A DNA stretch of 58,476 bases from Alloprevotella sp. (GTDB lineage Bacteria > Bacteroidota > Bacteroidia > Bacteroidales > Bacteroidaceae): positions 1-58,476 of the forward strand of contig JAFUXE010000003.1 of NCBI GenBank assembly GCA_017477205.1, read 5' to 3'. Positions 6,372-23,820 of this stretch are shown piece by piece. Every line of letters begins with the position of its first letter. The stretch's first letter is position 1. The translations under genes and the position numbers were made by a program. The notes beneath the pieces are model-generated. The model ran no database searches. It was given only the letters and a program-made list of their open reading frames with translations, and was not told where the DNA came from.

Positions 6372-9300
6372 ATGAAGAGATACAATCTGATAAACAACGT
6401 AACGGGATGGATTGTGTTCCTGATTGCGGCGGTCACGTACTGCCTCACGGTGGAACCCTCCGCAAGCTTTTGGGACTGTCCCGAGTTCACGACAACGGCT
6501 GCAAAGCTGGAAGTGGGGCACCCGCCCGGAGCACCATTCTTCATGCTTACGGGCAACCTGTTCACGCAGCTTACGGGCGATGCCACGCAGGCCGCTTACA
6601 TGGTGAACATCATGTCGGCCCTGCTCTCGGCCTTGTGCATCCTGTTCCTTTTCTGGACGATTACGCACCTGGCGCGCATGCTCATGACGCCTGACGGACG
6701 CGTCACGACGCTGGCCGACACGATTGTCGTCATGGCTGCTGGCGCCACGGGAGCCTTGGCATACACATGGAGCGACACCTTCTGGTTCTCTGCCGTGGAG
6801 AGTGAGGTGTACGCATATTCCTCGATGTTCACAGCCCTCGTGTTCTGGCTCATCCTGAAATGGGAAGACCATGCCGACGAGCCGCGTAGCGACCGCTACC
6901 TCGTACTCATCTTCTACCTCACGGGACTTAGCATCGGCGTCCACCTGCTGAACCTGCTCTGCCTGCCCGCCATCGCATTGGTGTACTGCTACAAGCGCTA
7001 TCCCAACGTCAGGCTGAAGGGTTCGCTCGTCGCGCTGGGCGTAGGCGTCCTGCTCGTCGCCAGCGTGCTCTACGGCGTTGTGCCGGGCATCGTGAAAGTG
7101 GGCGGCTGGTTTGAGCTCTTCTTCGTGAACTGGATGGAGATGCCCTTCAACACGGGCATGGTGGTGTATCTGCTGCTGCTCATCGCCGTGGTGGTTGCCG
7201 CCATCTGGAGCACGACTACGAAGAACCGCTTCCGCACGAACATCCTCTACGTACTCTCCGTAGCGCTGCTCGGCATCCCCTTCTTCGGAAAGGGAACCGC
7301 CTCCGTCATCATCGGCCTCCTGCTGCTTGCCGTCCTGGGCTATGCGCTCACCTACAAGCGCGAAAACGGCGAATACCTGCTGCGCAAGCGCCTGCTGAAC
7401 ACGTCGCTGCTCTGCATGCTGATGCTGATGATTGGCTACAGCACGTACGCCGTCATCGTCATCCGTTCCGAGGCCAACCCTCCCATGGACCAGGACTCAC
7501 CTGAGGACATCTTCTCGCTGGGTTCCTACCTGAACCGCGAGCAGTACGGCTCCGCACCGCTCTTCATGGGGCAGGCGTTCTCCTCGCAACCCATCGGCAC
7601 GAAGACGCGCGACGTATGGCACCGCGTCGAGAAGACGCACGAGGGCGAAGCCGACCGCTACGAGCCCGTCGAGGAGGTAGATGCCCTGGAGTATCCCTCC
7701 AAGCTGACCATGCTCTTCCCCCGCATGTACTCCGGCGCGTACGCACAGGCCTACGACGACTGGCTGGGCGGCGTGGACATGCGTTCCGTAGAGTTCGACT
7801 ACGAAGGACAAACGTATTACGGCGAGATGCCCTCGCAGCTGGACAACATCCGCTTCTTCCTCTCCTACCAGGTAAACTTCATGTACTGGCGCTACTTCAT
7901 GTGGAACTTCGCCGGACGCCAGAACGGCATCCAGAGCAACGGGGAGCGCGAGCACGGAAACTGGATTACGGGCATTCCGTTCATCGACAACATGGCCTAT
8001 GGCGACCAGAGCCTCCTGCCGGACGAGCTGAAGGAGGACAAGGGGCGCAACGTGTTCTACTGCCTGCCGCTGCTGCTCGGCTTGCTCGGCCTTTTCTGGC
8101 AAGCATTCCGCGGCGAACGCGGCGTGCGCCAGTTCTGGGTAGTGTTCTTCCTGTTCTTCATGACGGGACTGGCCATCGTGCTCTACCTCAACCAGACACC
8201 GCAACAGCCGCGTGAGCGCGACTACGCCTATGCGGGCTCGTTCTATGCCTTTGCCATCTGGATTGGCCTTGGCGTTGTGGCCCTGGCAGACCTGCTGAAG
8301 CGCATCAAGGCGCTGAAGGAAATTCCCGCTGCAGCCCTTGCCGCCGTCCTTGGCATTCTCGTCCCCCTGCAGATGGTGAGCCAGACGTGGGACGACCACG
8401 ACCGCAGCGGCCGCTACGCCTGCCGCGACTTTGGCCTCAACTACCTGAACACCATGCCCGAGACGCTGCGCGACGGCACGCCTGCAAATCCGATTATCTA
8501 CTCCAACGGCGACAACGACACCTTCCCGCTCTGGTACAACCAGGAGACGGAAGGCAAGCGCACGGACGCCCGCGTCTGCAACCTGGAGTATCTGAATACG
8601 GAATGGTACACGGACCAGATGGTGCGCCCGGCATACGACTCGCCTGCGCTGCCCATCGCCTGGGAACGCTACCAGTACGTGGACGACGGCAAACACAGCT
8701 TCTACCGCATCCGCAACGAGAAAGCACAGCTGGACGAGCTCAAGGCAAAGAATCCCGAAACCGACCCCTATGAGCTGCGCTACGTCATTGACAACTACGT
8801 CCGCACAAAGGGCTACTTCCCCACGGACTCCGTCGTGGTGCATGTCAACAAGGCGAACGTCATCAACCAAGGCATCACCATCCCCGACAGCGTGGAGATT
8901 CCCGAACAAATCTCCATCTCGCTGGCATGGGCCGCAGGACGAGGCGGACTCACACGCAGCCAAGTGATGATCTACGAGATGCTGGCGCGCAACGACTGGA
9001 AGCGCCCCATCTACATGTCCGCCACGTTGGGCTACAGCAACTACGCCGGTCTTCAGGACTACCTTGCCCTTGAAGGACTGGCCTACCGCATCACGCCCTT
9101 CAAGCGCGGCTATGGCTTCATCGACAGCGAGAAGATGTACGACAACATGATGAACCGCTTCGCCTACGGCAACGTTGCCCAGGAAGGCATCTTCCTCGAC
9201 GAGACGAACATGCGCATGTGCCTGACGCACCGCAACATGTTCACGCTCCTGGCACAGCAGTTGTTGCGCGAGGGCAAGAAGGAGAAGGCGCTTGAAGTGC

Positions 9301-17484: not shown

Positions 17485-17549
17485 CCCAAGTACGCCGCAA
17501 GAACGTTACCGACAGACAAAACAGTAGTTAATTGTTAAGAACAGAAGCA

Positions 17550-18167
17550 ATGGATAAGCTCACAGTTCAACAGCGACATGCCAACATGGCGGCAATTCGG
17601 TCGAAGGGAACGAAGCCTGAGATGGTGGTGCGTCGCGGGCTGTGGAAGCGAGGATTCCGGTATAGGCTGAACCACAAGCGGTTGCCGGGACATCCAGACT
17701 TGGTGCTTCGCAAATATCGGACGTGCATCTTCGTGAACGGGTGCTTCTGGCACGGGCATAGGAGCCTCACCCCCGTCCCCAAGCCTCACCCCCTAACCCC
17801 CTCTCCAAAAGTCGAGGGGGAAGCCTACGGCGGCGAGGGGAGTGAATACATCTTAACAGATTCGGCGTGTTGCAAGATCCCGAAGACGAACCGCGAGTTT
17901 TGGGTCAACAAGATAAGGCGGAACAAGGAACGCGACTTGAGGGTTCAGTGCGAACTGGCGTCCCTGGGCTGGCACTCCATCACCATCTGGGAGTGCGAGC
18001 TGACGCCGAAGATGCGGGAGAAGACGCTGGACGCCTTGGCCTATACGCTCAACAAGATATTCCTGCAAGACCACAGCATCCGGCGATACGAAGTCCCCGT
18101 AGATGCGCCCATGATGGCGGCAGAGGACAGCCCCGAATACAATCATCATGATGTACAACCACAATAG
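17550..18167 (+). CDS. vsr: Very short patch repair (Vsr) endonuclease with an in-frame repeat insertion
   Basis: The 205-residue protein matches Vsr: start MDKLTVQQRHANMAAIRSKG, catalytic region LPGHPDLVLRKYRTCIFVNG, CFWHGH, then CKIPKTNREFWVNKIRRN and LGWHSITIWECEL. Vsr nicks at T:G mismatches made by deamination of 5-methylcytosine in Dcm-type sites. Family members are usually about 140-160 residues; here about 30 residues (roughly 72-104, Pro/Gly/Glu-rich) split the zinc-binding loop between HGH and the next Cys. They are encoded by a palindromic repeat (17763-17848). The C-terminal tail from about residue 180 is also longer than usual. No cytosine methyltransferase gene is adjacent. Whether the enzyme is active is uncertain. 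Confidence 0.85.
   Translation: MDKLTVQQRHANMAAIRSKGTKPEMVVRRGLWKRGFRYRLNHKRLPGHPDLVLRKYRTCIFVNGCFWHGHRSLTPVPKPHPLTPSPKVEGEAYGGEGSEYILTDSACCKIPKTNREFWVNKIRRNKERDLRVQCELASLGWHSITIWECELTPKMREKTLDALAYTLNKIFLQDHSIRRYEVPVDAPMMAAEDSPEYNHHDVQPQ
17763..17848. repeat. Palindromic repeat inserted in frame in vsr
   Basis: CCCCCTC (17797-17803) pairs with GAGGGGG (17814-17820) around a short loop, within a C-rich then G-rich stretch of the widespread type CCTCACCCCCTAACCCCC. Its outer arms are imperfect (about 17765-17780 and 17831-17844). It keeps the reading frame of vsr. Confidence 0.8.
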
Positions 18168-18749: not shown

Positions 18750-18761
18750 GTACCCAGAGCC
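18750..18761. other. Left attachment site (attL core)
   Basis: GTACCCAGAGCC is identical to the 3' terminal bases of tRNA-Leu at the other end of the element. The bases beyond it on either side differ from those at the right end. Confidence 0.85.
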
Positions 18762-18854
18762 AATACAAAACCCAGAAAATAAAGGAAAATAAAAGAATTA
18801 AAAAGCATTGATTTACAGGGTTTTTCTTGTTTATTGCCTCCCTTTGATAGGATA

Positions 18855-18900
18855 AAGGTGTACTATTTTATGTTAATTAGTACACCTTATAGTACACCTT
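18855..18900. promoter_or_regulatory. Left-end repeats, probable integrase/excisionase arm sites
   Basis: AAGGTGTACT (18855-18864) is the inverse of AGTACACCTT, which follows twice at 18879-18888 and 18891-18900. The same decamer occurs near the right end, so these look like arm-type recombination sites, about 95-140 bp inside attL. Confidence 0.65.
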
Positions 18901-18914
18901 TGGAAAAAAAGTTA

Positions 18915-18922
18915 TATCTTTG
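18915..18922 (+). promoter_or_regulatory. Probable -7 box for the integrase gene
   Basis: TATCTTTG lies 35 bp before the integrase ATG. It directly follows the arm-site repeats, so binding there could repress the gene. Confidence 0.5.
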
Positions 18923-18957
18923 CACCAACAAAGGAAACCAAAAGAATATAGTAAGTT

Positions 18958-20202
18958 ATGGCAAAGTTAGAAAACAAGAGCAAAGACAACCCCAGACTTG
19001 AACAGCGGTTGTTAGCAGATGGGCAAATAAGCCTCTATCTGGAGTATTATTTGGGCAGGGAAAGTGAGCCTGTATTAGATGAGTTTGGTGAGCCTGTATT
19101 GTATGAGAGTGGCAAGATGGCAGGAACACCCAAATACAAGGTTAGGCATATAAGGAGAAAAGAAAACCTCAACCTTTATTTGGTGGCTACCCCCAGAACC
19201 CCTATTGATAGGCAGCACAACAAAGAAACCTTGCAACTTGCAAAGAAAATCAGACAGGAAAGGGAGCAGGAACTATTAGAGAGTAGTGAGGGCTACAGGC
19301 TAAAGAAAGACCGCCAAATAAACTTTCTGGATTACTTCCAAACCTATATTGACAATTACACCAAGAAAGATATTAGGATGGTGCAAATAGCCCTACAGCG
19401 GTTTAAGGACTTTTTGAACGATACCCCAGAGTACACCAAGTTTGCAAAGAGCATAAAGCCAGAGCAACTAAACAAAGATATGATGGTGGCTTTTACAGAA
19501 TACCTACAAAGTAGGAGTATTGGGGAGGGTGCAAAAAGCATTTATCAGCGTTTCAAGAAAGTAATAAAGTTTGCTATTGAGCATGATGTGATGATTAAGA
19601 ACCCTTGCACAGGGGTTGTTATTAAGGTTGATGACCAGATTTTGAGAAAAGATGTGCTTTCTCTGGATGAGGAACAAGCCTTGATAAACACCCACTATGA
19701 TGGGGAAAAACCCAATATTAGGAGGGCTTTTATAATGTGCCTGTATTGTGGTTTACGCTTTTGTGATGTGAAAGAGCTTACTTTTGCCAATGTGGACTTT
19801 GCTAATAAGTTGCTAAAGTTTGAGCAGAACAAGACAAAGGGGCACTCTGCCAACAGCGGTGTTATTATCCCCCTCAATGATGGATTGTTGAGGCTTATAG
19901 GAGAGCCAACAGAGAGCCAGACCAAAGACAGCCTTATATTTCCCCTACCAAGTTATGAAATGTGTCTTAAAGCCCTCAAAAGATGGGTTAAGAGAGCAGG
20001 AATTAACAAGCATATAAGTTGGCATTGTGCCAGACATTCTTTTGCCGTTAATATCCTCAACAATGGGGCAAATATAAAGACGGTGGCAAGCCTGTTGGGG
20101 CATTCTGGATTAAAGCACACAGAGAAATACACCAGAGCAATAGACAGACTGAAAGAGGATGCAATAAACAGTTTGCCAACTTTGGAGGTTACTAACTTTT
20201 AA
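18958..20202 (+). CDS. Tyrosine recombinase / integrase
   Basis: The 414-residue protein has three parts: an N-terminal arm-binding domain (about 1-110), a SAM-like core-binding domain (about 115-215, FLDYFQTYIDNYTKKDIRM) and a catalytic domain with the tetrad Arg in LYCGLRFCDVKELTF, HCARHSFAVNIL (His-x-x-Arg), GHSGLKHTEKY and nucleophile Tyr near residue 391. It should integrate and excise the element by strand exchange at GTACCCAGAGCC in tRNA-Leu. The type is that of Bacteroidota conjugative and mobilizable elements. Codon use is AT-rich compared with the flanking chromosome, a sign of transfer. Confidence 0.95.
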   Translation: MAKLENKSKDNPRLEQRLLADGQISLYLEYYLGRESEPVLDEFGEPVLYESGKMAGTPKYKVRHIRRKENLNLYLVATPRTPIDRQHNKETLQLAKKIRQEREQELLESSEGYRLKKDRQINFLDYFQTYIDNYTKKDIRMVQIALQRFKDFLNDTPEYTKFAKSIKPEQLNKDMMVAFTEYLQSRSIGEGAKSIYQRFKKVIKFAIEHDVMIKNPCTGVVIKVDDQILRKDVLSLDEEQALINTHYDGEKPNIRRAFIMCLYCGLRFCDVKELTFANVDFANKLLKFEQNKTKGHSANSGVIIPLNDGLLRLIGEPTESQTKDSLIFPLPSYEMCLKALKRWVKRAGINKHISWHCARHSFAVNILNNGANIKTVASLLGHSGLKHTEKYTRAIDRLKEDAINSLPTLEVTNF

Positions 20203-20217
20203 TGGAGGGTTGATGCT

Positions 20218-20403
20218 ATGAGTATAGATTGCTCAAATAATACTTGCAATAATGGATGGCAAAATAATGGCATTATTATAAATAGCGATGATGTGATATT
20301 AGCCTTAACCCAAACCATACAGAGGCAAGCCGGGCTAATTGAAACACTTACAAGCAGAATTATAGAGTTACAAAATAAATTGTTGCAATATGATGGTAAA
20401 TGA
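20218..20403 (+). CDS. Small coiled-coil hypothetical protein of the element
   Basis: The 61-residue product begins MSIDCSNNTCNNGWQNNG, rich in Asn and Cys, and ends with a heptad-like helix (LALTQTIQRQAGLIETLTSRI). It starts 15 bp after the integrase stop and overlaps the next gene by 14 bases, so it is likely translated with it. I do not recognise a family. Size and low complexity leave some doubt that it is a real gene, but its exact packing between two genes supports it. Confidence 0.5.
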   Translation: MSIDCSNNTCNNGWQNNGIIINSDDVILALTQTIQRQAGLIETLTSRIIELQNKLLQYDGK

Positions 20404-21046
20404 GTTTATAGAAAAAGTGGCAGACGGTGAAATTAACGACATTGACATAAGACGGTTTTTTGGTGGCTTATCAGATTTTGACAAATCGGGTTTGCTGGAA
20501 GATATGTTTATAGAAAGTTTGGCAGATGGGATAAGCGCACATAATGATGAAGGGCGGAGATTGGCAGATGCAATAAATATGCTTTGTGGGGTTTTTGAAT
20601 GGCGTTATGATAATGTGGAGAAAAAATACATTTATGAACCAAAACAGGGACCAGAGCAAGCAAACAACGGACAAACAACGGATGCCCAGAGCCTCAACCC
20701 AGAGCCTCAACAGATGGAATTAAAAGACCTGTTGCCAGAGAAACTAAAGGCAGATGAGGCGGTTAAAGTGTTCCAAAAGGCAATTGATGCCCAATTGATA
20801 ACCAACAGCCCAGAGGGGTTAAAACGGAACGATACAAAGCAACTATTGGCATACTTTGCCACAAAAGTAAGTGAAAAGTTTAGCCTTACAACCAGGCTTG
20901 ATAAGGATGGCAACAAAACAACAGCGTGGAAACCCTTTGAAACCTTGTTTAATGAGAAAGGATTGAAAGGGGCAAAACAAAATTGGATGAGGCTAAACAC
21001 TAAATTTGAGCCTACAGGATTTGAGAAAGTGGATGCCTTGTTTTAG
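20390..21046 (+). CDS. Hypothetical protein of the element
   Basis: The 218-residue protein is acidic in its first 85 residues (EFIEKVADGEINDIDIRRFF, repeated Asp/Glu), has a Gln/Asn-rich linker (about 88-110) and a basic C-terminal domain (about 112-218) with LLAYFATKVSEKF and EKGLKGAKQNWMRLN. A second ATG follows the first directly. I do not recognise a named domain; the C-terminal block is of a kind I associate with proteins of Bacteroidota mobile elements, possibly DNA-binding. A terminator hairpin closes the int-to-here unit at 21084. Confidence 0.7.
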   Translation: MMVNEFIEKVADGEINDIDIRRFFGGLSDFDKSGLLEDMFIESLADGISAHNDEGRRLADAINMLCGVFEWRYDNVEKKYIYEPKQGPEQANNGQTTDAQSLNPEPQQMELKDLLPEKLKADEAVKVFQKAIDAQLITNSPEGLKRNDTKQLLAYFATKVSEKFSLTTRLDKDGNKTTAWKPFETLFNEKGLKGAKQNWMRLNTKFEPTGFEKVDALF

Positions 21047-21083
21047 AGCCTCAACACACCCAACACACCCAACCACACCCAAC

Positions 21084-21113
21084 CACACCGATATAACAAC
21101 GGTGTGTTTTTTT
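21084..21113 (+). terminator. Terminator inside the element
   Basis: CACACCG (21084-21090) pairs with CGGTGTG (21100-21106), followed by seven T. Just upstream (21051-21083) lie short direct repeats of the type CAACACACC. Confidence 0.85.
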
Positions 21114-21162
21114 GTGGATTATCCTTTGTTACTTTGCACTTGCTTTCAAGATGGTGGGATAA

Positions 21163-21220
21163 GTATAGCAAGCCCTACCAGATAGGGAGCAGGGCAAATA
21201 AGGGGTGGACTTGCTAACAC
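21163..21220. other. Structured leader before the excisionase-like gene
   Basis: AGCAAG (near 21168) and CTTGCT (near 21211) are inverted repeats enclosing CCCTACC and GGTGG, which can extend the stem. The stretch could be a regulatory leader or the double-strand origin used by the Rep protein; it has no coding potential. Confidence 0.35.
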
Positions 21221-21256
21221 CCTCTGACAGCCAAAACCCTCTAAAATAATAAAGCG

Positions 21257-21547
21257 ATGCCAGAGGAATTGAAACAGGTGGCAGACCTTATAACTGCCAA
21301 CACTATCTTTTGCACAAAAGAGGTGCTAACAAGCGATGAGGCAGCACGATATTTGGGTATATCCAAATCCTACCTCTACAAACTGACAATGAAACAGCAG
21401 ATACCCCACTACAAACCGATGGGAAAGATGTGCTATTTCAACCGTGTGGAGTTGGAAAGTTGGCTACAGAGCAACAGAGTTGCAACAGCCGATGAGATAA
21501 GCCAACAGGCACAAACCTATTGTATGAAGAAAGGAGGCAAGCGATGA
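21257..21547 (+). CDS. Excisionase-family helix-turn-helix protein
   Basis: The 96-residue protein carries a MerR/excisionase-type winged helix-turn-helix of the HTH_17 class at about residues 22-75: VLTSDEAARYLGISKSYLYK, followed by MKQQIPHYKPMGKMCYFNRVELESWL. In Bacteroidota elements such proteins help the integrase excise the element and often regulate neighbouring genes. Its last codons overlap the next gene as ATGA, so it is the first gene of the replication unit. Confidence 0.88.
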   Translation: MPEELKQVADLITANTIFCTKEVLTSDEAARYLGISKSYLYKLTMKQQIPHYKPMGKMCYFNRVELESWLQSNRVATADEISQQAQTYCMKKGGKR

Positions 21548-22077
21548 ACACCCCCAATGTACGCTATTATGCCAAGATGGTGAACACCACCCAGAAAGGC
21601 AAGAAAACCCCCAAGTACACGATTACAGCCCAAGCAGGGTATTACCCACCAATGGAACAATTGAGGGGCAGGGATGGGCAAATTTCAATGAACCTAACGG
21701 AAAAGTTGAAAGAGGGGGATAATGTACCCTCTATGAGGTTGCAAGCCAAAAACAGCCTCAACTTTACAGGGCTTAAAGATTACTTCCAAGATGGCAAGTT
21801 GAGTGGGTTTGCCTATGGCTACCCTCTGAATAAACAGACCTACAGCAAGGATGAGAAACCCAACCCTTTCTTTGAATACAAACAGGATGGCTTTCTTTTC
21901 TTGATAGAGCAGGATGAGAAAGACCCAACCAACCTAACACCCACCTCTATAGAGTTGGTTGTTTTGGAGGGTGCAAAGGTGCTTATTAGTGCCTATTGCA
22001 AGCAACTTGTTATGGGTGGCTTTGATGAGGCTTTACAGGCTTTGAGGGAGCAAGCCCAGAAAAGGAGTGCCTTATAA
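21544..22077 (+). CDS. Unknown protein between the excisionase-like and Rep genes
   Basis: The 178-residue protein starts MNTPNVRYYAKMVNTTQKGK with a basic N-terminus (several Lys through residue 25) and continues with alternating strand-like segments (YTITAQAGYYPPMEQL, FLFLIEQDEKD, IELVVLEGAKVLISAY), an all-beta look with a C-terminal helix. No cysteine cluster, signal peptide or membrane segment is seen. I cannot assign a family. Its place directly before a II/X-type Rep gene is where filamentous phages keep a single-strand-binding protein, so that role is a possibility, without sequence proof. The start overlaps the previous stop. Confidence 0.75.
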   Translation: MNTPNVRYYAKMVNTTQKGKKTPKYTITAQAGYYPPMEQLRGRDGQISMNLTEKLKEGDNVPSMRLQAKNSLNFTGLKDYFQDGKLSGFAYGYPLNKQTYSKDEKPNPFFEYKQDGFLFLIEQDEKDPTNLTPTSIELVVLEGAKVLISAYCKQLVMGGFDEALQALREQAQKRSAL

Positions 22078-22110
22078 TAATATGTAGTTTGTGGGCAAAA
22101 ATTGGTAACA
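22072..22110 (+). promoter_or_regulatory. Repeated control motif before the Rep gene
   Basis: TTATAATA (22072-22079) and TTGGTAACA (22102-22110) stand 30 bp apart, start to start. The same pair with the same spacing occurs before the last gene of the element (23071-23109), so it is probably a promoter/operator unit. Confidence 0.6.
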
Positions 22111-22120
22111 CTCCACACCG

Positions 22121-23065
22121 ATGTATGACAAAGTAAAACTCTGGATTGATAGGGCAATAGTTGGGGAGCAATACCCCACTATTGCAAACTATCTGGATAG
22201 TGCCAAACAGGAAACAGACCTACAGACCGGGGAGGTTAAGACGTTTGGCAGTTTGGAGGGTTTGAAAGTGTCTATCTTTGTGGGTGGGTTGTCTGTTGTG
22301 GGGAGTTTGCCAAAATATCTGTATGGCAGCAATGTTTACCCTCTGGATAGGCACACAACAGCCCGCGCAATAGAAAAGATTGGGGATGCCTTGCACATAA
22401 AGATTGGGCAAGCAGCGGTTACAGGTGTTGAGTTTGGCACAAACTTTCTAATGATGCACCAAGTGCCAGATTACCTTGCAAAGTTGGGCAATATGCCCAG
22501 ATTGAGCCGATACCACTTTGAACCCTCAACCCTGTATTATAAGGGAACAGGCAAGCAGCAGCCCAAAGTGTTTGCTTTCTATGATAAGATGGCAGATGCA
22601 ACAGCCAAAGGGATGGAGTACCCAGAGGATATGAAAGGGGCAAACCTGTTGAAATATGAAATGAGGTTGAACGGCAGACTACCCCAACAATTAGGAGTGC
22701 CAGAGGTTACAGCCTCAACCCTTGCACAAACACCCTTTTACAGGATGATGGTTAAACGCTACCAAGATAGTTACTTTTCAATATCCAAGCAGACCCAAAT
22801 TAAAACCAATGTTATGAGTGAGATAAAGACCGTTTCAGATGCTTTCAACGTGTTTGTTGCACGATTGATAAGCCAGACAGACCAAACCCAGATAGGGGGC
22901 TTTCTGGATGAGTTGAAAGAGGCAAGTGTTCTTGATGATAGAAAGAACTACAGCCGACTAAAGAAGAAAATCCAAGAGGTTGCCACAAAAGCCAATATTA
23001 CCGTGTCCGATGAGTTAATGAAAGAGTTGGATGATGAGATAAGGAATTGTGGGGCTTATGTGTGA
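22121..23065 (+). CDS. Rolling-circle-type replication protein, phage II/X-like
   Basis: The 314-residue protein resembles the phage/plasmid replication protein II/X family (Phage_CRI), named for filamentous-phage gene II. The supporting blocks are an N-terminal strand MYDKVKLWID, the motif VFAFYDKMADA, then LLKYEMRLNGRLPQQLGVPE, the conserved E-x-R segment, followed by a helical C-terminal part. Such proteins nick the double-strand origin and start rolling-circle replication of circular DNA. In an integrated element it would copy the excised circle. Family call is from motif order; I could not check for all catalytic residues. Confidence 0.78.
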   Translation: MYDKVKLWIDRAIVGEQYPTIANYLDSAKQETDLQTGEVKTFGSLEGLKVSIFVGGLSVVGSLPKYLYGSNVYPLDRHTTARAIEKIGDALHIKIGQAAVTGVEFGTNFLMMHQVPDYLAKLGNMPRLSRYHFEPSTLYYKGTGKQQPKVFAFYDKMADATAKGMEYPEDMKGANLLKYEMRLNGRLPQQLGVPEVTASTLAQTPFYRMMVKRYQDSYFSISKQTQIKTNVMSEIKTVSDAFNVFVARLISQTDQTQIGGFLDELKEASVLDDRKNYSRLKKKIQEVATKANITVSDELMKELDDEIRNCGAYV

Positions 23066-23070
23066 TTGTC

Positions 23071-23109
23071 TTATAATAAAGTGTATGTTGTTACCAACTT
23101 TTGGTAACA
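23071..23109 (+). promoter_or_regulatory. Second copy of the control motif with a palindrome
   Basis: TTATAATA (23071-23078) and TTGGTAACA (23101-23109) repeat the pair upstream of rep. Here TGTTACCAA (23089-23097) makes a 21-bp palindrome with TTGGTAACA around CTT, a likely dimeric-protein binding site. Confidence 0.65.
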
Positions 23110-23132
23110 TTCTAAAGTAGATTAAAGTAGAT

Positions 23133-23432
23133 ATGGGCAGAGCAAAAGGAACTCCAAAGACAGGTGGCAGAGCAAAAGGTACACCAAACAAGATAACAGG
23201 AACATTGAAAGACTTTGTTTCTGGACTGATTGAAGAGAACCGGGAACAGATGCAGAAAGACTTGCAAGCACTGAGCTCCAAAGATAGGCTTTTAGTGTTG
23301 GAGAGGTTTTTGCAGTACGTCTTGCCCAAGCAACAAGCGATAACGGCCGATATGTCGGTAGAAAGACAACCAAGAGGCATTACACCCGATGAGGCCAGAG
23401 CCTTTTTGGAGCGATTAGAAAATGAGTATTAG
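23133..23432 (+). CDS. Small basic protein with duplicated GRAKGTP motif
   Basis: The 99-residue protein begins with two copies of GRAKGTP separated by KTG (residues 2-8 and 12-18), then NKITGTLKDFVSGL, a charged helical region and a C-terminal helix (DEARAFLERLENEY). The GRPKGxxNK-type N-terminus occurs in many Bacteroidota phage and mobile-element proteins (DUF5681-like), some of which are suspected small terminase subunits. AT-hook-like DNA binding is plausible. No firm function. It is the last gene before the right end. Confidence 0.7.
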   Translation: MGRAKGTPKTGGRAKGTPNKITGTLKDFVSGLIEENREQMQKDLQALSSKDRLLVLERFLQYVLPKQQAITADMSVERQPRGITPDEARAFLERLENEY

Positions 23433-23737
23433 CTCATATATTCACCTTCATGTGCAGGTGTGGCAGTCTGTGATAGATAGCTACACCTTTTTTCAAAAAG
23501 AGCCTCAACCATATAGGAAACCAAATATATTTTGTACCTTTGCAACGGCTTTGCAAAAAGCCAACTATATTTTTTTGGTTGGGGTGTTGTGTAGTGATAC
23601 ACTTGCACCCCTTTTTGATGAGGCTTGAACCACCCCAAAAGTACACCTATATGTTGAAAAGTACACTTTTAGTACACCTTGAAAAAGAAAAATCCCCTGT
23701 AAATACTTGATTTACAGAGGATTGCTTTTTGAACCTT
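23433..23737. other. Non-coding right end of the integrated element
   Basis: No convincing gene is seen. It holds a box TACCTTTG (23535-23542) followed by GCAACGGCTTTGC (a GCAA..TTGC dyad), three AGTACAC-type repeats (23640-23680) and a hairpin, CTGTAAAT/ATTTACAG, at about 23698-23718, next to attR. Confidence 0.65.
23640..23680. promoter_or_regulatory. Right-end repeats, probable arm sites
   Basis: AGTACACCTA (23640), AGTACACTTT (23660) and AGTACACCTT (23671) are direct copies of the decamer found at the left end. They lie about 60-100 bp inside attR. Confidence 0.65.
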
Positions 23738-23749
23738 GTACCCAGAGCC
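23738..23749. other. Right attachment site (attR core)
   Basis: GTACCCAGAGCC forms the 3' acceptor end of tRNA-Leu on the minus strand and is identical to attL. The tRNA is therefore intact after integration. Confidence 0.88.
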
Positions 23750-23820
23750 GGGGTCGAACCGGCACGGGTTGCCCCACTGGTGTTTGAGACCAGCGCGTCT
23801 ACCGATTCCGCCATCTGGGC
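23739..23820 (-). tRNA. tRNA-Leu (anticodon CAA)
   Basis: On the minus strand the gene reads from GCCCAGATGGCGGAATCGGT to the acceptor TCTGGGTA. The acceptor stem GCCCAGA/TCTGGGT pairs with one G-T, the T-loop GGTTCGACCCC is present, and the anticodon loop CTCAAAC within CTGGT/ACCAG gives CAA. A short variable arm and D-loop fit a class-II tRNA of 82 bases. CCA is not encoded. Its 3' end is the integration site of the element. Confidence 0.95.

Follow-up and report, generated by a model that had tools for sequence, protein, structure and literature searches.

The stretch of DNA analysed here (the window, 58,476 nt of contig JAFUXE010000003.1 from an Alloprevotella sp.) carries at positions 18750-23749 a small integrated element which, with a probability that we place at about two in three, is a minimal satellite of tailed phages similar to the phage-inducible chromosomal islands (PICIs), and not an inovirus or an NBU-type mobilizable unit. 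The island is a bounded insertion at a tRNA-Leu gene, flanked by exact 12-bp direct repeats, and the circle predicted after excision measures 4,988 bp. Its seven open reading frames (ORFs), all open and all on the + strand, encode an integrase (Int), a protein of 61 residues, a protein of 218 residues (p218), an excisionase-type helix-turn-helix (HTH) protein (gene xis), p177, a replication initiator (Rep) and p99. The element belongs to a family with a common gene backbone, and the member in the window combines genes for an integrase, an excisionase-type protein and a Rep of rolling-circle type with one whose family is found in the position of the small terminase subunit (TerS). A satellite of tailed phages is preferred to one of filamentous phages or to a plasmid because the p99 family holds this position in many phages.

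The gene p99 (23133-23432, + strand, 99 residues) had been mentioned in an earlier note on this DNA as the GRAKGTP protein; it is indeed present, and the informative position of its family was missed there. p99 itself found nothing of weight in Pfam, PHROGs or NCBIfam. A profile of the family, A1, was made from 64 sequences, and it matched genes located directly before the gene of the large terminase subunit (TerL) in Enterobacter phage MII_001 (1.9e-10), in phage ctnlZ23 (2.1e-9) and in the loci L105 and L106 (4e-14). In these last two the p99 homologue abuts or overlaps a Terminase_3 gene (2.6e-22 for the neighbour in L105). We then considered 127 loci of viral contigs, namely the best 80 of at least 240 found with the A1 profile and 47 found with the p99 of L094; 88 of the 127 have an ORF that passes A1 at 1e-3. 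To call TerL, a profile built on four TerL genes was applied to the first following gene on the same strand that has at least 200 residues and starts within 600 nt. TerL was the next large gene for 60 of the 88 p99-like ORFs, overlapping in 53 cases by 4-71 nt and separated in 7 by gaps of 3-469 nt, whereas in the same 88 loci it came next for 38 of 768 other ORFs of 60-190 residues. Considering this difference, the p99 family is by position a small-terminase family, and the p99 of the window is a putative TerS. After the remaining 28 p99-like ORFs another gene came next in 4 and none in 24. Pfam recognised Terminase_3 in 28 and Terminase_6N in 24 of the 60 next genes (one protein may match both), and any others rest on the TerL profile.

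A search with Rep gave 18 relatives, 15 of them in contigs of genomes and 3 in viral ones, or 19 loci with the window; L003 and L004, which are near-identical, are both counted, and L007 comes from Marseilla massiliensis An819. In 11 of the 19 the slot between rep and the 3' attachment (att) end holds a TerS-like gene, and these genes are of three unrelated types. A p99 homologue occupies the slot in eight loci (the window, L001, L002, L005, L008, L010, L014 and L015). In L003 and L004 the slot encodes an HTH protein of 161 residues, which in L003 matches terminase small subunits (phrog_3218, 9.3e-5; phrog_2538, 3.4e-4) and in L004 is counted as TerS-like solely by clustering with that of L003. 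The third type, a 175-residue protein of L018, corresponds to the terminase small subunit phrog_309 (4e-27); by tblastn it has matches in 298 phage records, several of them annotated as terminase small subunit, and it matches the gene that immediately precedes TerL in Streptococcus satellite phage Javan259. L018 also encodes a tape-measure-like protein of 735 residues (phrog_25241, 1.2e-11), and both genes lie between the two copies of its 28-bp repeat (788-815 and 8901-8928).

A wider survey covered 393 genomes from Bacteroidales, the order to which Marseilla massiliensis belongs, and found Rep in 15 genomes (1e-5) and p99 in 25 (1e-6). Among the 28 of 29 p99 places that were examined, eight lay 25-400 nt downstream of a family Rep, two before TerL (one prophage, it seems, present in two genomes) and twelve downstream of a same-strand integrase without the family Rep. 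The other six had no arrangement with Rep, TerL or integrase; one had an xis-type gene and some were on short contigs. Ten candidate replication proteins were collected from p99 elements, and Pfam assigned them to helicase-primase types (D5_N/DUF5906 in L097 and L099), DUF6371 (L097), a BT4734-like type (L100, and with PriCT in L108) and a Lin1244 type (L096), those of L094, L095, L103 and L107 having no Pfam match. Thus p99 ends many small elements with an integrase, as would be expected if PICI-like satellites can exchange their replication genes.

Exact bounding repeats of 12-28 bp were present in 15 of the 19 loci, and the bounded elements measure 4.5-8.1 kb; L006 begins inside the element, L013 and L014 have no repeat at the tRNA, and L017 was left out of this search. 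The target sites are tRNA-Leu (caa or taa), tRNA-Glu (L012), tRNA-Arg (L002), the 5' end of the tmRNA gene (L016) and, in L018, the end of a gene which we take to be nqrF. No tRNA was called in L010, but the 14-bp repeat found there is identical in sequence to the tRNA-Leu ends at L004 and L007; L002 and L010 have an additional, longer repeat away from the tRNA end. The order int-p218-xis-p177-rep is mostly conserved and the 3' slot varies. Over the 19 loci the clusters comprise 19 ORFs for rep, 18 for p177, 18 for int (two of them in L017), 16 for p218 and 15 for xis, counts which use mechanically predicted ORFs, with some genes hidden by overlap; of the backbone genes L013 has only Rep. Compared with the integrase of the window, those of L016 and L018 reach only about 27% identity, so that exchange extends to the integration modules. 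L092 retains int, p218, xis, p177 and p99 and has, instead of this Rep, other genes (one of 275 residues).

For transfer and virion genes we used 49 of the 68 non-core ORFs from 14 bounded elements (short and antisense ones were dropped) together with the p99 of the window, 50 in all. By Pfam at 1e-3 no relaxase, conjugation, coupling or capsid family was found among them, the only matches being HTH domains, one lipocalin-like and one viral-peptidase-like. In PHROGs (1e-3) the functions named were terminase small subunit, tail tape measure and endolysin, the single endolysin label falling on the tape-measure-like protein of L018; the other families matched carry no functional name. Neither the element in the window nor the 50 ORFs gave a coat or Zot-type gene in Pfam or PHROGs. 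The earlier note had considered that homologous elements might always carry a relaxase or virion genes just outside the boundaries; this is not borne out, as no relaxase, conjugation or capsid family appeared in this Pfam search, although L018 has its tape-measure-like gene. That note had also reported no relaxase, morphogenesis ATPase or capsid gene in the island, and for its seven proteins Pfam, PHROGs and NCBIfam agree, with no match of weight to a relaxase, a Zot-type ATPase or a capsid protein.

Several observations weigh against a PICI-like satellite. After rep no recognisable TerS was found in 7 of the 19 loci (L006, L007, L009, L011, L012, L013 and L016), where the slot proteins of L007, L011, L012 and L016 were compared with PHROGs and L006 was checked for p99 only; L009, with its 19-bp bounding repeat and core genes, has no ORF predicted after rep. 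The contig of L017 ends 279 nt past rep, so its slot was not judged. The viral relatives closest to the p99 of the window (L184, L185 and L188-L193, 36-48% identity; L186 and L187 gave no scored p99 ORF) are not beside TerL. Similarly, the p99-like genes of the Bacteroides phages BF1-TP2, BKO1-TP3 and BS-TP4 are near an integrase with no TerL annotated adjacent, and in BF1-TP2 a TerL-like gene is about 19 kb away. The AlphaFold2 model of p99 is helical and of low confidence (pLDDT 74), with no structural match supporting TerS. Rep was found in only 3 of 2.9 million viral contigs in a scan with this one protein, one scan of viral contigs gave no excised-circle junction, and neither a helper nor circular or packaged DNA was observed. 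Finally, all the genes of the element are on the + strand, and the divergent repressor of classical PICIs is missing. Considering that its closest phage relatives are not beside TerL, p99 may be a relocated TerS, or a TerS-derived protein with another task.

Lone p99-like genes near an integrase and far from TerL were seen in L019 (7001-7297), L020 and L021, which are Bacteroides phages, and in L184, L185 and L188. They raise the question of whether such phage genes are a second TerS, a decoy or an anti-satellite gene.

Two of these points give some room to an integrative plasmid, which would excise and replicate as a rolling circle with no dedicated transfer, p99 serving in maintenance or regulation. 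L009, which is bounded and has the core genes and nothing predicted after rep, would suit it, and so would the separation from TerL of the phage genes closest to p99. We regard it as unlikely in view of the TerS-like genes in L018 and L003, of the tape-measure-like gene that L018 also carries and of the place which the p99 family holds in phages. The earlier note had proposed a satellite-like or plasmid-like unit leaning on another element; an integrative and probably dependent unit agrees with our results, and between its two options the position of p99 favours the satellite of tailed phages. It is quite unlikely that the element is an integrative and mobilizable element whose Rep doubles as a relaxase (compare MOBT, related to Rep_trans), with the circle moved by a resident conjugative element and p99 as an accessory DNA-binding protein. 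Integration at tRNA-Leu and small size are features of NBU-type units; nevertheless Rep matches PF05144 and no relaxase family, the Pfam search of the 50 non-core ORFs gave no conjugation or coupling gene, and it would be left unexplained why TerS-like genes of three kinds occupy the 3' slot.

PF05144 is the family of G2P, the filamentous phage replication protein, and Rep might therefore make single strands that a helper inovirus extrudes. This we consider very improbable, given the lack of coat and Zot-type genes in the element and in the 14 bounded elements; moreover Rep matched nothing in PHROGs and, by tblastn at E<=0.1, none of 50,697 phage records, and a gene for packaging double strands would be superfluous. 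The filamentous-phage-like character of Rep pointed out in the earlier note holds for PF05144, and the link to filamentous phages amounts to one protein domain. The small size of the element and the lack of any activity shown would also be compatible with a defunct prophage or satellite remnant; the seven ORFs are nevertheless all open, the att ends are exact, Rep and p177 show conservation across hundreds of homologues and there are indications of empty sites for the relative L015, and we give this explanation hardly any weight.

If the element is a PICI-like satellite, a helper phage or stress would trigger Int and the excisionase-type protein, and the 4,988-bp circle would be excised. Rep would then nick its origin, for which the repeats flanking rep are candidates, and produce rolling-circle concatemers. 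p99 would act as an alternative TerS, bringing the TerL of the helper onto satellite DNA; headfuls of concatemer, about the length of the helper genome, would fill the helper capsids, and the satellite DNA would reintegrate at tRNA-Leu in the next cell. We would give even odds to the broader proposal of an undescribed lineage of tailed-phage satellites in Bacteroidota, which would combine a filamentous-phage-type rolling-circle Rep with an exchangeable small terminase, Rep making the concatemers, TerS diverting the headful motor of the helper, and replication and TerS modules being swapped on an int-xis backbone.

Rep (22121-23065, + strand, 314 residues) is a replication initiator of the G2P type, with a match to PF05144 (Phage_CRI, 3.4e-7) above the curated cut-off. 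It has 910 homologues at E<=0.001, with an 85% identical Rep listed for Prevotella dentalis DSM 3688, and one distant plasmid match; Y154, K156 and E180 are among the residues invariant over 26 sequences. Its gene is flanked by two copies of a repeat on the + strand. The upstream copy (22073-22109) is formed by TATAATAA and TTGGTAAC, 29 nt from start to start, and the downstream copy (23072-23108) has the full dyad GTTACCAACTTTTGGTAAC. In the family the repeat consists of TATAATAA and then TTGGTAA (TTTGTAAC in L011 and L012) starting 28-29 nt further. It was located directly upstream of rep in 13 of the 18 loci examined and not more than 60 nt downstream in 10. One half of the downstream copy is altered in L006 and L015, in L017 this copy is 133 nt away, and neither copy was found in L013 and L014. 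It is possible that these repeats are the double-strand (rolling-circle) origin, which we favour over an operator.

The ends of the island are marked by GTACCCAGAGCC, of which the 58-kb window has just two exact copies: at 18750-18761 (+ strand), the attL core and outer end of the element, and at 23738-23749 (+ strand), the attR core. With up to 2 mismatches there were 8 matches against 4.15 expected, a number reached by 3 of 100 shuffles, so only the exact pair is informative. The right copy forms the 3' terminus of an intact tRNA-Leu(caa) (23738-23820, - strand), the integration target and the sole tRNA called by ARAGORN in the window. Both the exact 12-bp repeats and the intact tRNA-Leu had been described in the earlier note. 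The motif AGTACAC[C/T]T, searched on both strands, has six copies in the whole window and all six are at the two ends of the element, in a left cluster of three arm-type sites at 18856-18899 (AGTACACCT, one of them inverted) and a right cluster of three at 23640-23679. This distribution fits an integrase with an arm-binding domain (PF17293), and the integrase may bind these candidate sites.

Concerning mobility, the earlier note had left room for close relatives having no empty tRNA-Leu site, and the outcome differs between members. For L015 empty sites are indicated by short matching stretches (59-101 nt, 81-85% identity) in G525, G496 and G540, three of the 19 relatives compared, where the left flank joins the tRNA side; the matches include the 15-nt core and reach the tRNA side. 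For the element in the window no empty site was demonstrable, as the 30 right-flank loci fetched had no nearby tRNA-Leu or left-flank gene; the right-flank gene is present in 92 of 101 genomes.

The tyrosine integrase (18958-20202, + strand, 414 residues; PF00589, 1.1e-22) has Arm-DNA-bind_5 and SAM-like domains (PF17293, 1.2e-7; PF13102, 9e-15), and the excisionase-type HTH protein (21257-21547, + strand, 96 residues) matches TIGR01764 (5.2e-12) and PF12728 (1.3e-14). Together with Rep they bear out the integrase, excisionase-like and II/X-like genes read earlier, and the same is true of one-strand genes in AT-rich DNA, the G+C fraction of the element being 0.416 against 0.583 and 0.610 in the 10 kb on each side. 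The 178-residue protein of that account has 177 residues from its ATG at 21544. This protein, p177 (21544-22077, + strand), is beta-rich and has no fold match; it has 957 homologues at E<=0.001 and its gene is directly upstream of rep in all the loci except L013 (18 of 19). p218 (20390-21046, + strand), whose single-linkage cluster holds 16 ORFs over the 19 loci, has no Pfam match, a variable N-terminus and a C-terminal part common to many relatives. The 61-residue ORF (20218-20403, + strand) was matched among the 18 relatives in L001 only, and its match to a virion protein is at chance level (E 0.2).

Some other observations were made in these contigs. In the window, the ORF at 17532-18167 presumably encodes a protein resembling a very-short-patch repair endonuclease; near 17765-17840 it has an in-frame, low-complexity palindromic stretch that resembles an inserted short repeat. 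In L013 (6781-10672) a Rep homologue without int, xis and p177 is followed by a restriction-modification pair, a type II methyltransferase and a restriction enzyme (PADLOC, 2.4e-91 and 5.4e-88), before a tRNA-Glu. In L016 (1359-8005) the bounding repeat, at the tmRNA 5' end, is 27 bp long, and several small opposite-strand ORFs follow rep. In L088 (10726-13283) a distant Rep and an integrase stand beside a cytosine methyltransferase and an MzaB-like protein (7.7e-63), possibly a defence cargo. L311 (NZ_OY725790.1, 49598-62173) is an element with integrase, HTH and Rep genes near an aspartate kinase gene, in a 278-kb Parabacteroides record labelled as a plasmid that more closely resembles a piece of chromosome.

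Bacteroidales are major bacteria of the gut and the rumen. The 5-kb family, with its 957 p177 and 910 Rep homologues, could provide markers for phage-borne gene transfer in this order and, if the proposal is true, it would be among the small elements that carry their own packaging gene. The results also suggest why such elements escape notice, since mostly they have no hallmark virus gene and Rep is so rare in viral contigs.

By comparison with known systems, the NBU-type mobilizable units of Bacteroides are likewise small and integrate at tRNA-Leu, and they differ from the element in the window in that no mobilization protein was found in it. With the inoviruses it has the PF05144 replication domain in common; unlike them it has no coat or Zot gene that we could find, and its Rep is unmatched in PHROGs and phage records. 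PICIs follow a plan of Int, excisionase, their own replication gene and a small terminase, with no capsid or lysis genes and a fixed integration site. The element resembles those of the SaPI (Staphylococcus aureus pathogenicity island) type in its integrase, excisionase-type gene, own replication gene, site-specific integration and lack of a capsid gene among those found. As to a gene that redirects packaging, the p99 family has the TerS position for 60 of the 88 ORFs in viral contigs, the phage genes closest to p99 do not, and a clear TerS is present in the relative L018. It differs in its size of about 5 kb, one-strand genes, absence of a divergent repressor, a G2P-type Rep in place of a primase, and a Bacteroidales host. 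As the divergent repressor is absent and packaging is a prediction, we call it PICI-like and do not file it as a PICI.

According to PMC10803314, terS is a gene that redirects packaging in PICIs, and these are placed in many Firmicutes and Gammaproteobacteria. The same paper presents the phage-inducible chromosomal minimalist islands (PICMI), which adjoin fis and use AlpA and a primase; PICMI115 of Vibrionaceae (6,110 bp) is reported there to be replicated as a rolling circle and packaged as an eight-copy concatemer, with no terS identified. The element in the window is small and has few genes as these do, but it is located at tRNA-Leu and not at fis, has no AlpA or primase among its seven proteins and carries a putative TerS. 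By analogy with PICMI115, an element of about 5 kb could travel as a packaged concatemer, and members such as L009, in which no TerS is visible, could function all the same. The accessible text of PMC12946183 deals with lateral transduction in Bacteroidales and names PICIs only for Staphylococcus and other listed groups, that of PMC12324425 concerns marine elements that are integrated in archaea and lack known hallmark genes, and nothing resembling our element appears in the portions available of PMC8530359 and PMC11389934. Among the titles and abstracts listed by our searches of open-licence PMC papers we found no account, and no earlier description, of tailed-phage satellites in Bacteroidota.

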